Assembly (NCBI GenBank): GCA_021462855.1
Contig: JAJTXQ010000065.1
Location: 1-64,000 of the forward strand
Origin: Dehalococcoidia bacterium
Lineage (GTDB): Bacteria; Chloroflexota; Dehalococcoidia; DSTF01; JACRBR01
Length of the DNA stretch: 64,000 nt
Reading direction: 5' to 3'
Made by a program: the position numbers and the translations under genes. Of this stretch, positions 1 to 4,698 are shown piece by piece (within the stretch, counting starts at the first letter, position 1; the number at the start of each line of letters is the position of its first letter). Under the pieces are notes generated by a model. It had not been told where the DNA came from. It saw only the letters and a list, made by a program, of their open reading frames with translations, and did no database searches.

Positions 1-1022
1 TGCCGGACCACCTCGGCAGCACCTCCACCGTCCTCGACGCGAACGGCGCTATCGTCTCCAGCCAGCGCTACTGGCCGTACGGCGCGACGCGTTCCGGCAG
101 CGTGACGCAGACCGACCGGCTCTACACCGGCCAGCGCCAGGAGCCCGGCGATGCGGCCATGGGCCTCTACAACTACAAGGCCCGGTTCTATAGCACGACG
201 CTCGGGCGGTTTGTGAGTGCGGATCCGGTCGGGCGATGGGCAACTTCGCAATCGGTCAACAGATACACGTACGTTCTTGGGAATCCTCTTCGCTACGAAG
301 ACGGTAGCGGGCACGAACCGAGATGCCCGACGGGCATACCGTGTCCAGCCGCGGCGCCAACGCCCCCACCGACTCCAGTAACTTACGGCACGCCCGTGCC
401 CGGTGTCGACCAGCTGTCTTGGGATGCCTGCAACCGAACCCCCGCCGCGTGCCTGTTCTGGGCAGCCGGCGGCGATTGGTCGCAGTACATCGGCCTGGTC
501 GCTGACAGATTCGCGATCCAGCCCGACCTTCTGTCGGCGATAATCTTGAACGAGATGGATTCCCGAAACGGGGGTGGGCTCGCGGAATTGAAGGACGATC
601 TCATCGAGTCGATCGGAGCAAGGCTCGAGGTCGAATGTCTTGGTCCAAAGTGCATCAGTTATGGCATCGCACAGATACAGGCAAAGACGGCAAGAATACT
701 CGAGGAGAAGGACATGGTGCCGGATGCTGGGGGAACCGCACAGCGAATAGCGCGGCTTCAGAACCCTCAGTGGGCGCTCTATTACGCATCCGCGTTGCTC
801 GCCGATGTGCGTGACCTCCACGTTCGATACGCCGGAAGACTCGGCCTCGACTACACCAACGATCTCATCATCCTCTACTTTGCTGACCCGGACACCTACT
901 TCGTCTGGGTTGATCAAGGCGCGAAGCCTGTAGGAGGGCAAACGACCGGACCTCAGATAGAGAAAGTACGAAGGTATCTGCCGTATTCGGTGGATGAGTT
1001 GGCAGTTCGCTTAACGCAGTGA
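1..1022 (+). CDS. Rhs/YD-repeat protein, 3' end only, with a transglycosylase-like C-terminal tip
   Basis: The gene enters from before base 1 and is open in frame from base 3, leaving about 339 residues. The first 80 visible residues are the Rhs-associated core: DHLGST, a YWPYGA element, TGQRQE, and GLYNYKARFY...LGRFVSADP. In Rhs and polymorphic toxins this core closes the shell and is followed by a variable toxin tip. Here the tip (about 200 residues) contains ILNEMDSR and, about 45 residues later, SYGIAQIQAKTA. These resemble the catalytic-Glu and GLMQI-type motifs of lytic transglycosylase/lysozyme folds. I infer a peptidoglycan-cleaving tip. The Rhs part is certain and the enzymatic reading is moderate. 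A small membrane protein follows at once and may be its immunity partner. Confidence 0.85.
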   Translation, partial: PDHLGSTSTVLDANGAIVSSQRYWPYGATRSGSVTQTDRLYTGQRQEPGDAAMGLYNYKARFYSTTLGRFVSADPVGRWATSQSVNRYTYVLGNPLRYEDGSGHEPRCPTGIPCPAAAPTPPPTPVTYGTPVPGVDQLSWDACNRTPAACLFWAAGGDWSQYIGLVADRFAIQPDLLSAIILNEMDSRNGGGLAELKDDLIESIGARLEVECLGPKCISYGIAQIQAKTARILEEKDMVPDAGGTAQRIARLQNPQWALYYASALLADVRDLHVRYAGRLGLDYTNDLIILYFADPDTYFVWVDQGAKPVGGQTTGPQIEKVRRYLPYSVDELAVRLTQ

Positions 1023-1036
1023 ATATGGGGGGTGAA

Positions 1037-1528
1037 ATGGGTCCTCGCTCTGCCACTTCGAGGTTAGCCGTTTGGATCATCCTAGCCATCGTCCTCGTGT
1101 TCTTCTTAGTCGCCGCTCCTACTTGCGAGGACCAGGTTACCCGGACGGATGAGAGCATTCCCCTCCCAAATAGCGGCGTAGGATTGGAGCCGATTGCAAG
1201 TGGAGTTGTCGTTCTCGGGCGCAACGGCGACCACAAGTACTGGATCTACGGAAGCGCTTCGTTTTCGATGACTGACCTCATCGCCGATGTTGAAGTGCGC
1301 CTACGCGAACGCCACTGGGAGATCTACCCAATTAGCGATTCCCGTCCGCCCGTCGGCGTGCGCGCGACCAACGGGGCGACGTGTCTTTCATATAGCGATT
1401 TATCCCGCACAGACAACGCCGTGGTGGCGAGCACGCGGTCTGCGATACTGGAACAAGATCCGGATCTCTCCATCGAATCGGAGAAGTTCCGCGCGTTACT
1501 TCTGATCGGGGAGTTCCCCTGCCCGTGA
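1037..1528 (+). CDS. small membrane-anchored protein, candidate immunity partner of the Rhs tip
   Basis: About 163 residues. A GTG at 1019 would overlap the Rhs stop and an ATG lies at 1025, but the G-rich stretch 1027-1034 is a usable ribosome binding site only for the ATG at 1037, so I chose that one. One strongly hydrophobic helix near the N terminus ends at a Cys, either as a membrane anchor or a poor lipobox. The remainder is a predicted extracellular domain with no family I recognise. Genes directly downstream of polymorphic toxin tips are usually immunity genes, and an outward-facing anchored protein would suit protection against a cell-wall hydrolase. That function is inference from position only. 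Confidence 0.7.
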   Translation: MGPRSATSRLAVWIILAIVLVFFLVAAPTCEDQVTRTDESIPLPNSGVGLEPIASGVVVLGRNGDHKYWIYGSASFSMTDLIADVEVRLRERHWEIYPISDSRPPVGVRATNGATCLSYSDLSRTDNAVVASTRSAILEQDPDLSIESEKFRALLLIGEFPCP

Positions 1529-2007
1529 AGCGCGCTGGCAGTAGCTTCGATCTACCTCCGCGCAAGGACGGCAAACGTTTCATTTGACCAATCCTGTTGG
1601 AGCTGATCTAATCCATCGGTCAGATGCCGGCGGGGCATGACCGTTGGATTCGTCTGCGTTGCGCGCATCGTCCGGGCTTGCCCAGATTCGCGGTGGACTG
1701 GCGGGCTACCGAATCGGGCCGAGGGACTTTTAATCCGTCGGTCCAGGGTTCGAATCCCTGAGGGCCCACCAATCTTCCCTCCTTCGCTGCGGATCTCGCT
1801 GCACCCACGCCTGATTTCGAAATCTGGCGCGGACTGGTTATCTCGAAGGATGTGTGCGCCCGTGGTGCGCCTGCGGTGCGATGGTGTCGCGCCCGCCGAG
1901 TCCGTTCGTGCGATGGGTGACTTCAGGCCGTGAAGCGACTCGTGGGCGCAGACGTTCGCGCATGGCATGTCATGCTGGTGGGACTATGTTGTGGCGCGCC
2001 GCCGCGC
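1529..2007. other. noncoding gap between Rhs module and next gene
   Basis: I find no convincing gene here. The only recognisable content is the 3' portion of a tRNA-Lys at 1723-1771. Open frames in the gap lack start signals and family resemblance. Confidence 0.6.
1723..1771 (+). pseudogene. tRNA-Lys (anticodon TTT) 3' remnant or divergent tRNA
   Basis: An anticodon loop CTTTTAA (1727-1733) is followed by a 5-nt variable loop, a perfect 5-bp T stem around TTCGAAT (1744-1760), a 3' acceptor strand, discriminator A and an encoded CCA (1769-1771). The 5' half is not tRNA-like at the expected distance: the D loop lacks the usual GG, the acceptor strand at 1695-1701 mispairs, and the anticodon stem has a G-G mismatch. 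This is what a 3' tRNA fragment duplicated at an integration site looks like. A degraded full tRNA is the alternative. Confidence 0.55.
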
Positions 2008-2712
2008 TCAGTTGGCGCAGGGCCAGTCGGGGGCGCGGTCGCGCTGCGTGGGGCACGTCGGGTACGTGTAGTGCGCGAGCCCGGGGCTTTCGCCGCCGAA
2101 GTACACCGCGACGAGGTCCACGTCGAGTTGCACCGTGACGCGGCACGTGAGGTCTGTGGGCGCGCCCTGTCCTCCCGTGTCGATGTTGCACTCGCCGCCC
2201 TTGACCCACTCCAGGTCCGGCCACCAGAAGGCGCGCGAGTCGCCGGCCGAGACCGTCAGCTGCGTCCCGGGCTTTACGACGTAGTAGTAGACGCACGGGT
2301 CGGGGTACGTCTCGCGGAGGCATTGCCGTTGAAAGCCCTCGGCGTAGATGTCGTCGGGGTTTGCGGCCGTGGCGCTGACGCGCGGCGGCTGGCCGTAGAG
2401 GGTCATCACCAGGACTGCGCTGTCGTCGGGATAGCCTTCCTTCAGCGCCTCCTTGTCGACCGGGGCGGGCCCGTGCGCGCCCGTTGCGGGCGTCGGCTGC
2501 GCTGTGCGCGTCACGGCCGGGCTCGCATCGGCCACCGTGGCGATGACCTGCGCGGTCGGCGCCGCCGGTGAGTCGCCGCCGCCACCGCCACCCATGATCG
2601 TCCAGGTGATCGACCCTACGACCCCGAGGCCGAGGAGCGTCGCGAGGAGCACGCCCAGCGGCCCGCCCGGCAACCCGCCGCCGCCGCTCGACCCCGACCC
2701 GCCCGATGTCAT
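2008..2712 (-). CDS. hypothetical membrane-anchored extracellular protein
   Basis: 234 residues from the ATG at 2712, which has a GGGAGG site just upstream. The frame stays open further upstream but that part is Arg-rich shadow sequence. The N terminus is Gly/Ser-rich (about residues 1-20), then one transmembrane helix (about 20-38) followed by six glycines and a Pro/Thr/Ala linker. The C-terminal 120 residues contain six or more cysteines, suggesting a disulfide-stabilised secreted domain with a beta-rich look. I do not recognise a family. A -10-like TACAAT lies at 2744-2749. The gene is divergent from the glycosyltransferase-like gene that follows. Confidence 0.7.
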   Translation of the reverse strand: MTSGGSGSSGGGGLPGGPLGVLLATLLGLGVVGSITWTIMGGGGGGDSPAAPTAQVIATVADASPAVTRTAQPTPATGAHGPAPVDKEALKEGYPDDSAVLVMTLYGQPPRVSATAANPDDIYAEGFQRQCLRETYPDPCVYYYVVKPGTQLTVSAGDSRAFWWPDLEWVKGGECNIDTGGQGAPTDLTCRVTVQLDVDLVAVYFGGESPGLAHYTYPTCPTQRDRAPDWPCAN

Positions 2713-2808
2713 GCGCGCCTCCCGGTTTCGTATCCGCCGTCGATTGTAAGGCACTCGCCGGCAGCGGTGTCTAGTGGCGGATTGCGCCAGCTTGTCCGCA
2801 TCGGCGCC

Positions 2809-4698
2809 ATGTCCGCGCCGGGAGCGGTCGCGACGAGTACCATGGTGCCGATGCGGCTCGCGGCGCTGGCGCTGTCGTTCCTCACGATCGTCGTCACGAT
2901 GGTCGCGGCGGAGTTCTACGACCTCTACCTGTTGTCGTGGCAATCGCAGTTGATCTTCACCGACGACTGGAACCTCTGGGACGCCGCCGAGCGGTCAGGC
3001 ACGTACTACCTGCCGTTTACGACGTTCTCCGCGCTGCCGTACGGGCCGCTCTTCTACTATCCGATGGCGGCATGGATGTTTGTCCTCGACACGGTCCGCG
3101 TGATCGATGTCGATGGCTGGACGCAGGTCGACGGACTGTACGGCTCGGTCAGCGCGCCAGCGCTGCTCAAGCTGCCCAACCTCGCCGTCTTTCTTGGCAC
3201 GGCGTGGCTGTTCCGGTCGATCGCGCCGCGTGCGCACGGCGCGTCGCTCGCCATGCTCTGGATGCTAAACCCGGGCGTCATCCTCGCGTTCTTCGTGATG
3301 GGGCAGAACGATGGATGGACGATGCTGCTGGTGCTCGCCGCCTTCCGCCTCGCGCAGCTCACGGCGGAAGGTGGAGCGCGCGCGGAGCGGCATGCGTTCG
3401 CCGCGATGGCCGTGCTGGGGCTCGGCGCGGCGGTGAAGCTGCAGCCGGCGCTGCTGTTCGTGCCGTTCGCGCTTGCGCTCGACACGCGCTGGCCGTGGCG
3501 CGCCGCGCTGCTGGCGGTGGCGGGCGTGGTGTTCCTGGCGCCGGTCGCGCCGTTCATCGGCGACCCGTTCTTCCGGCATCACGCGCTGTTCAACCCCCAG
3601 GGGCAGACGCTGCTCGACCACCGCATCGGCGAGCTGCCGCTGTTCTGGCCGATGTACGCGGCCGCCGCGCTGTGGCCGCTGACCGGGCGCGGCGCGGCGC
3701 GTGGGCTCGTGCCGTCGCTCGTCGCGGTGCACGCGATCCTGTTTGTGCTATCGGACTGGCCGCCGGAGCGGGCGGCGTGGTTCGCGGGCGTCAGCATCAT
3801 CGCCTGCGCGTACGACCGCGCGGGACTGGTCGCGTACGCCGGCGCGACGGTGGCGGCGCTCGTCGTCGCGCTGCCGCTGGGCAACGGGCTCGGAGCGGGC
3901 GTGTTCACCTCGCTCAGCGAGCAGCTCGCCGCGCAGCGCGGGATCGGTGCCGCGATCGACGAGTGGATCGCGCTCGGCACGCTTCACGACGGGGTCGTCC
4001 TCGCCGCGGGCGCGGGCTGGCTCATCACGCTCATCGCGCTCACCCGCAGCGGTGGCGCGGCGCCCGCGCGCGTGCCCGATGCGCTGCTGCTCGCGCTCGC
4101 GCTCGCGCTGCCGGCGTACTTCGCGGTGTCGATCGCCTACGGCGGCGGCGGCGTCTCGGTCGGGAGCGCCAGCGGCAGCGAGCGGCAGGTGGGCGATGCG
4201 CAGGTGGCGCAGCCGTTCCTGTCGGCGCACGAGCGACTGGCGTCGATAGAGCTGGCCGGCAGCGGCGTGCTGTCAGATGCCACGCTCGAGGACGCGCGCG
4301 GACAGCGTCACGCGCTCGAGGCCGAAACGACGTCCGCGGGCTGGCGCCTGCGCCTCGCGGACGGCGGCGCGGCCGAAGGGCGTGCGTTCGTGCTCCGGTT
4401 CGACCTGCGAGGCGGACGCGTGTTGGTCGCGCAGACGGGCGACCGTCCGCCGGCGACGATCGACGGCGTCGCGGTGCCGTATGTGCTGGCGGCGCGCTAC
4501 CACTTTTCGCGCGACTGGAGCGCGCTGGCGGGCGACGCCGCGGCGAACCTCGCGCGCCGGTGGCTGGCCGTGCTCGCCGTGAGTGCGATGCTCGCACCCG
4601 CCTTCGTCTCGCTCGCCCGGCGGGGAGCGCGCGGCTCGGCGGAGCTGCGTCCGCCTGAGCGGACCGCGCGGCCAGCGGATCGCGGGACTCTCGCCTGA
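2809..4698 (+). CDS. GT-C fold glycosyltransferase-like integral membrane protein
   Basis: About 629 residues from ATG 2809. GTG 2767 and ATG 2842/2851 are alternatives, and none has a clear ribosome binding site. The first 430 residues hold many hydrophobic helices. The loop after the first helix has acidic residues (FTDDWN), and later NPGVIL followed by GQNDG and then KLQP match the NP...GQ.D...K.Q pattern seen in GT-C/GT87-like polyprenyl-phosphate-sugar-dependent mannosyltransferases. A beta-rich extracytoplasmic region (about 430-570) and one last helix close the protein. The likely role is transfer of a sugar from a lipid carrier at the outer face of the membrane. The substrate cannot be read from the sequence. 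Confidence 0.75.
   Translation: MSAPGAVATSTMVPMRLAALALSFLTIVVTMVAAEFYDLYLLSWQSQLIFTDDWNLWDAAERSGTYYLPFTTFSALPYGPLFYYPMAAWMFVLDTVRVIDVDGWTQVDGLYGSVSAPALLKLPNLAVFLGTAWLFRSIAPRAHGASLAMLWMLNPGVILAFFVMGQNDGWTMLLVLAAFRLAQLTAEGGARAERHAFAAMAVLGLGAAVKLQPALLFVPFALALDTRWPWRAALLAVAGVVFLAPVAPFIGDPFFRHHALFNPQGQTLLDHRIGELPLFWPMYAAAALWPLTGRGAARGLVPSLVAVHAILFVLSDWPPERAAWFAGVSIIACAYDRAGLVAYAGATVAALVVALPLGNGLGAGVFTSLSEQLAAQRGIGAAIDEWIALGTLHDGVVLAAGAGWLITLIALTRSGGAAPARVPDALLLALALALPAYFAVSIAYGGGGVSVGSASGSERQVGDAQVAQPFLSAHERLASIELAGSGVLSDATLEDARGQRHALEAETTSAGWRLRLADGGAAEGRAFVLRFDLRGGRVLVAQTGDRPPATIDGVAVPYVLAARYHFSRDWSALAGDAAANLARRWLAVLAVSAMLAPAFVSLARRGARGSAELRPPERTARPADRGTLA

Follow-up and report, generated by a model that had tools for sequence, protein, structure and literature searches.

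A putative Tse3-type muramidase tip on an Rhs protein of a Dehalococcoidia bacterium, beside a candidate exported immunity protein

Tse3 is a cargo of the type VI secretion system (T6SS) of Pseudomonas and is injected into rival cells. According to the available part of its published description, Tse3 is a muramidase with an SLT fold, a catalytic Glu250 and the conserved residues Gln280 and Tyr376; it holds Ca2+ via Asp253, Gln254, Glu258 and Asp262, and it is blocked by the periplasmic protein Tsi3, which occupies the active site with its loops (PMC3792639). In Rhs polymorphic toxins, as treated in the available text of Zhang et al. (2012; PMC3482391), a variable tip follows an Rhs core, and extended polyimmunity loci are ascribed there only to certain proteobacteria, bacteroidetes, firmicutes and actinobacteria. 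We describe here a gene pair that lies at the very start of a stretch of 64,000 nucleotides from a Dehalococcoidia bacterium (Chloroflexota), referred to as the window, and that combines features of both systems.

The window starts at base 1 of its contig (C62 of genome G000; the assembly counts 3.0 Mb in 76 contigs), and the contig edge cuts the Rhs gene at its 5' side. The assembly did not yield the remainder of the gene: there was no PF05593 match, and the core of the window matched only itself within its own genome. The part that is present consists of an Rhs core immediately followed by a variable tip, as in an Rhs polymorphic toxin and as initially annotated: the Rhs_assc_core model TIGR03696 matches residues 23-104 of the open reading frame (E 8.2e-17), and the tip, of about 230 residues, starts directly behind it and keeps an intact reading frame up to the stop. 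Against a GC content of 0.705 for the whole window, the core has 0.654, the tip 0.593 and the following gene 0.583. In further genomes of the order the same Rhs core is followed by other tips; the tip position is swappable. The related Rhs genes carried RHS repeats (3/3) and an SpvB domain that scored above the cut-off in one of the three and just under it in another, and two of them started with a hydrophobic segment. More Rhs tips or tip fragments, unrelated to the tip described here, are clustered on one contig at L033 (G401:C340) and at L034 (G402:C230). Just 3' of the gene pair, where the GC content rises back to the level of the window, positions 1703-1760 (+) hold a fragment that is like part of a tRNA, with an anticodon loop containing TTT and then GGGTTCGAATCCC; it scores 22.2 bits with the Rfam tRNA model (cut-off 29) and ARAGORN reports no tRNA. 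This fragment could be an integration scar. The coordinates of the features are collected in Table 1.

Table 1. Features of the Rhs gene end and the adjacent gene, in window coordinates.
Feature	Position	Strand	Basis or remark
3' part of Rhs gene	3-1022	+	open reading frame open at contig start, stop 1020-1022
Rhs core, C-terminal part	3-314	+	TIGR03696 match
Variable tip: linker, then predicted lysozyme/SLT-like (Tse3-type) domain	315-1019	+	profile comparisons
Tip part matched by HMM A10 (from other genomes)	486-848	+	tip residues 34-154, 16.9 bits
Glu184 codon, candidate catalytic acid	552-554	+	aligned with Glu of other tips, which match Tse3
Gln224 codon, in S-Y-G-I-A-Q	672-674	+	aligned with SIGxGQ of other tips
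Candidate immunity protein	1037-1528	+	163 residues from ATG 1037; homologues beside the L048 tip
Hydrophobic N-terminal anchor, ending near Cys30	1070-1126	+	Kyte-Doolittle 3.33 over 15 residues
Cys116 codon, conserved among window-type partners	1382-1384	+	partner comparison
Cys162 codon, conserved among window-type partners	1520-1522	+	partner comparison

The initial annotation had likened the tip to a lytic transglycosylase on the basis of two motifs, ILNEMDSR and SYGIAQIQAKTA, spaced as in SLT/lysozyme folds. Both motifs were recovered in the tip, around Glu184 and Gln224, respectively, and the residues that correspond to the catalytic Glu and to the Gly and Gln of motif 2 (Glu184, Gly221 and Gln224) are all kept. 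The argument from spacing fails for the canonical SLT domain, because the stretch from Glu to Gln, counted inclusively, spans 41 residues in the tip versus 19 in 26 out of 30 SLT domains taken from the class (a distance of 40 versus 18). Where the other tips have a GYNxG motif, the window has only 'LYF', with Tyr292 close by, and the residues that come after Glu184, MDSRNGGG, did not follow the pattern of the Ca2+ ligands of Tse3 when judged by eye. Searched alone, the tip had no match in Pfam (PF01464 SLT included), NCBIfam or PHROGs, and a sequence search of the PDB yielded only chance matches (antibodies and others), among which Tse3 was absent. Structure prediction, which had been proposed as a check on the fold, gave no usable result: AlphaFold2, run on an alignment of two sequences (the tip and one close relative), reached a pLDDT of 38.5. 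A control profile was built from 30 canonical SLT domains found in the class. In hhalign it aligned only with the helix preceding Glu184, the match ending on that Glu (P 0.011, probability 4), and its score for the tip was reached by 27 of 500 shuffles (6 of 500 for the L032 tip, from the L032/L048 locus on G402:C151); we consider this match too weak to serve as proof by itself.

The 18 genomes of the order contained one true relative of the tip (L048, on G402:C151), and a scan of genome contigs had as its sole match JAGWOC010000117.1 ('Chloroflexota bacterium isolate REEB247'), at the same match place as G402:C151. A profile of the two tips (A3), run at E ≤ 0.01 against 393 genomes of the class, retrieved no third one. 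With a similar profile (A5), 49 of 400 genomes of the phylum gave matches at E ≤ 1; of 11 matches that were inspected one was a true relative (L095, in G088), and the other ten were weak and were discarded upon inspection of the sequences. The L095 tip, used as query against 220 genomes of the class of G088 (E ≤ 0.05), matched seven genomes: G088 itself, three with real relatives (L113, L114 and L115) and three with chance matches (L116, L117 and L118), discarded after inspection as were the weak matches L003 and L004. No relative was confirmed among the viral contigs that were scanned, and tblastn of plasmids and phages found none. The tip of L095 is preceded by an Rhs-core ending (NRYAYVNNNPLRYSDPSGH), and a gene whose product begins like a lipoprotein overlaps its stop. 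L114 likewise has an Rhs-core end upstream (a partial TIGR03696 match, E 5.8e-5, below the cut-off) and its tip carries the motifs 'VDPVMLASIVYYESDAIERL', 'SSIGLGQVRIDTA' and 'GYNVG'. L115 is the only one among the relatives and the window tip to reach the Pfam cut-off for PF01464 SLT (21.9 versus 21.3 bits, E 1.4e-4), and it has other repeats in place of the Rhs core. At this locus (976-2958 (-) on G747:C782) the SLT-type tip comes after long repeats of the VAYTAYRRVTRWV kind and is flanked by an anchored partner; the repeats are possibly another polymorphic-toxin stalk.

These relatives made it possible to connect the window tip to known families. A profile of five tip rows from four other genomes (A10; L113 entered as two pieces, the window and L048 excluded) was aligned by hhalign with the tips of the window and L048 over 115 columns (probability 97.1, P 7.5e-11), with Glu184 falling on the Glu of 'YYESDA'. 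As an HMM, A10 gave the window tip its score in Table 1 and L048 14.2 bits; none of 1000 shuffles of either tip reached the score of that tip (maximum for the window tip 5.2), and 12 other Rhs tips, chosen for comparison, scored -0.8 bits or less or nothing. In the PDB, A10 matched all six distinct Tse3 sequences listed (E 3.3e-7 to 3.8e-7), and the same profile extended with the window and L048 (A9) did so at E 1.8e-8 to 2e-8. Through the other tips Glu184 is aligned with the catalytic Glu of Tse3. Because these intermediate tips link the window to Tse3 and to PF01464, the predicted membership of the tip in the lysozyme/SLT superfamily is supported; this part of the initial annotation therefore stands. 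As to its more specific part, the predicted chemistry of a Tse3-type muramidase fits the tip better than that of a lytic transglycosylase.

The gene behind the tip is intact, and its product was confirmed as the anchored protein of 163 residues that had been placed within 15 nt of the Rhs gene: its ATG at 1037 lies 14 nt after the Rhs stop and the N-terminus is strongly hydrophobic (an alternative in-frame start, GTG 1019, overlaps the stop as GTGA and would yield 169 residues). An anchored partner adjoins all six tips examined, the window included, and in L095, L113, L114 and L115 its start overlaps the tip stop as ATGA. The nine partners examined all show a hydrophobic N-terminus, a Cys near the end of it and at least two further Cys. 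The L048 tip is followed by two full homologues of the window partner and a broken one, a more divergent full homologue lies upstream of it, and G401 has one more homologue without such a tip; two other candidates from the search of 393 genomes (L052 and L053) were chance matches. A gene of the window type is thus found beside both tips of the window's clade (2/2) and a different family beside the tips elsewhere (4/4), where the partners of L095, L113 and L114 are homologous to each other and that of L115 is divergent. Homology between the two families was unsupported (hhalign P 0.36). It had been argued beforehand that unrelated genes downstream of homologous tips would speak against the pairing, and this objection holds by half, because two unrelated families exist, yet each is consistent inside its clade. 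A model of the window partner (pLDDT 67.4) gave 432 Foldseek matches in the PDB at E ≤ 10 and none at E ≤ 0.001. The proposal of the initial annotation that the second gene is a partner of the tip, with immunity as its candidate role, is supported by the occurrence of an exported, anchored protein at every tip examined, and the protein probably shields its producer.

We consider it probable, judging from the sequence comparisons, that the tip is a peptidoglycan muramidase of the Tse3 type, in the SLT/goose-lysozyme superfamily, on an Rhs stalk and that the partner is its exported immunity protein, with muramidase activity and neutralisation as predicted properties. An exported partner fits a target that lies outside of the cytoplasm, and the homology of the tip points to peptidoglycan. 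Peptidoglycan transpeptidases (PF00905) are encoded in all 18 genomes of the order, with three matches in the genome of the window. In the proposed mechanism, the missing N-terminal part would be an exported SpvB/Rhs-like shell as in the related genomes; the secreted shell would release the tip at the wall of a neighbouring cell, where it would cut the glycan strands of peptidoglycan; Glu184 would act as general acid and Gln224 would lie in the substrate groove. The partner, predicted to be exported and tethered to the membrane, would be placed outside of the cytoplasm, on the side of the wall, block the tip and in this way guard the producer's own wall space. Catalytic activity and toxicity of the tip, its delivery and its neutralisation by the partner are inferred.

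The signs of decay among the relatives bear on a different reading, in which the tip is related to the muramidase domain but degenerate and inactive, an old cassette that is kept for binding or is being lost. The nearest tip, L048, has Gln at the place of the catalytic Glu, it lies in a disrupted array and it seems frame-broken near its C-terminus; disrupted tip frames were found in three of the five relatives (L048, L095 and L113), and the GYNxG motif is missing from the window tip. The tip frame of the window, however, is intact to the stop, the partner is intact as well, and Glu184, Gly221 and Gln224 have been kept, and we deem inactivity unlikely for this tip. As a separate observation, positions 1-3250 of L032/L048 (G402:C151) contain tandem units of a C-terminal tip remnant plus a partner gene, with pieces of Rhs core on both sides, an arrangement suggestive of an orphan tip/immunity array in decay. 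It is still less probable that the domain is no toxin and remodels the wall, helping the Rhs protein to cross or to anchor to the cell's own wall: SLT domains are widespread as housekeeping enzymes (40 of 119 genomes of the class), but this one sits behind the Rhs core, at the swappable tip position, and has a tightly linked partner gene, repeated in L048, as would be expected of immunity genes. A chance resemblance of the motifs, with the tip as an unrelated toxin fold, would agree with the missing direct family match, the poor model and the weak match to canonical SLT, and is highly improbable given the hhalign probability of 97.1 to other tips, which themselves match Tse3 and SLT.

Taking the muramidase reading as the preferred one, a family known as T6SS cargo of Pseudomonas would occur here as a swappable Rhs tip in a poorly cultured phylum, each time beside an exported partner. 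If true, Chloroflexota would possess contact weapons aimed at the wall, with immunity located outside the cytoplasm, and concrete candidate pairs would be at hand in the window, L114 and L115. A wider proposal, which we put forward as speculative, is that Chloroflexota may deliver a Tse3-type muramidase on a secreted SpvB/Rhs-like shell without a T6SS, that two families of anchored, exported proteins with cysteines, unrelated to each other, may have been recruited independently as immunity against one and the same catalytic domain, and that the tandem partner arrays may form an immunity reserve. Rhs tips are known and so is Tse3; of their combination, a Tse3-type tip on Rhs in Chloroflexota/Dehalococcoidia, we found no earlier description in the open-access literature searched.

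The locus thus relates to the described systems as follows. With Pfam PF01464 SLT the tip shares the superfamily and the order of the motifs, and its relative L115 passes the cut-off, whereas the window tip itself has no Pfam match and a Glu-to-Gln distance more than twice that of the canonical domain. Goose-type lysozyme (PDB 3gxk) was the next PDB match of A9 after Tse3, yet at E 0.2 it was not significant. With the Rhs polymorphic toxins the locus has in common the Rhs core, the variable C-terminal tip and the adjacent partner, and the tandem partner copies resemble a polyimmunity locus; it differs in that the only lysozyme-like toxin given in the available text of Zhang et al. is Tox-Glucosaminidase (PF01832), from Firmicutes and linked to T6SS/PVC (PMC3482391). 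In comparison with Tse3/Tsi3 of Pseudomonas aeruginosa, the window partner matched no fold in the PDB at E ≤ 0.001, and the window domain is mounted on an Rhs core, whereas Tse3 is a free T6SS effector; the two systems are alike in a homologous catalytic domain (profile E 1.8e-8) with aligned Glu and Gln, and in the exported protein that adjoins the toxin.
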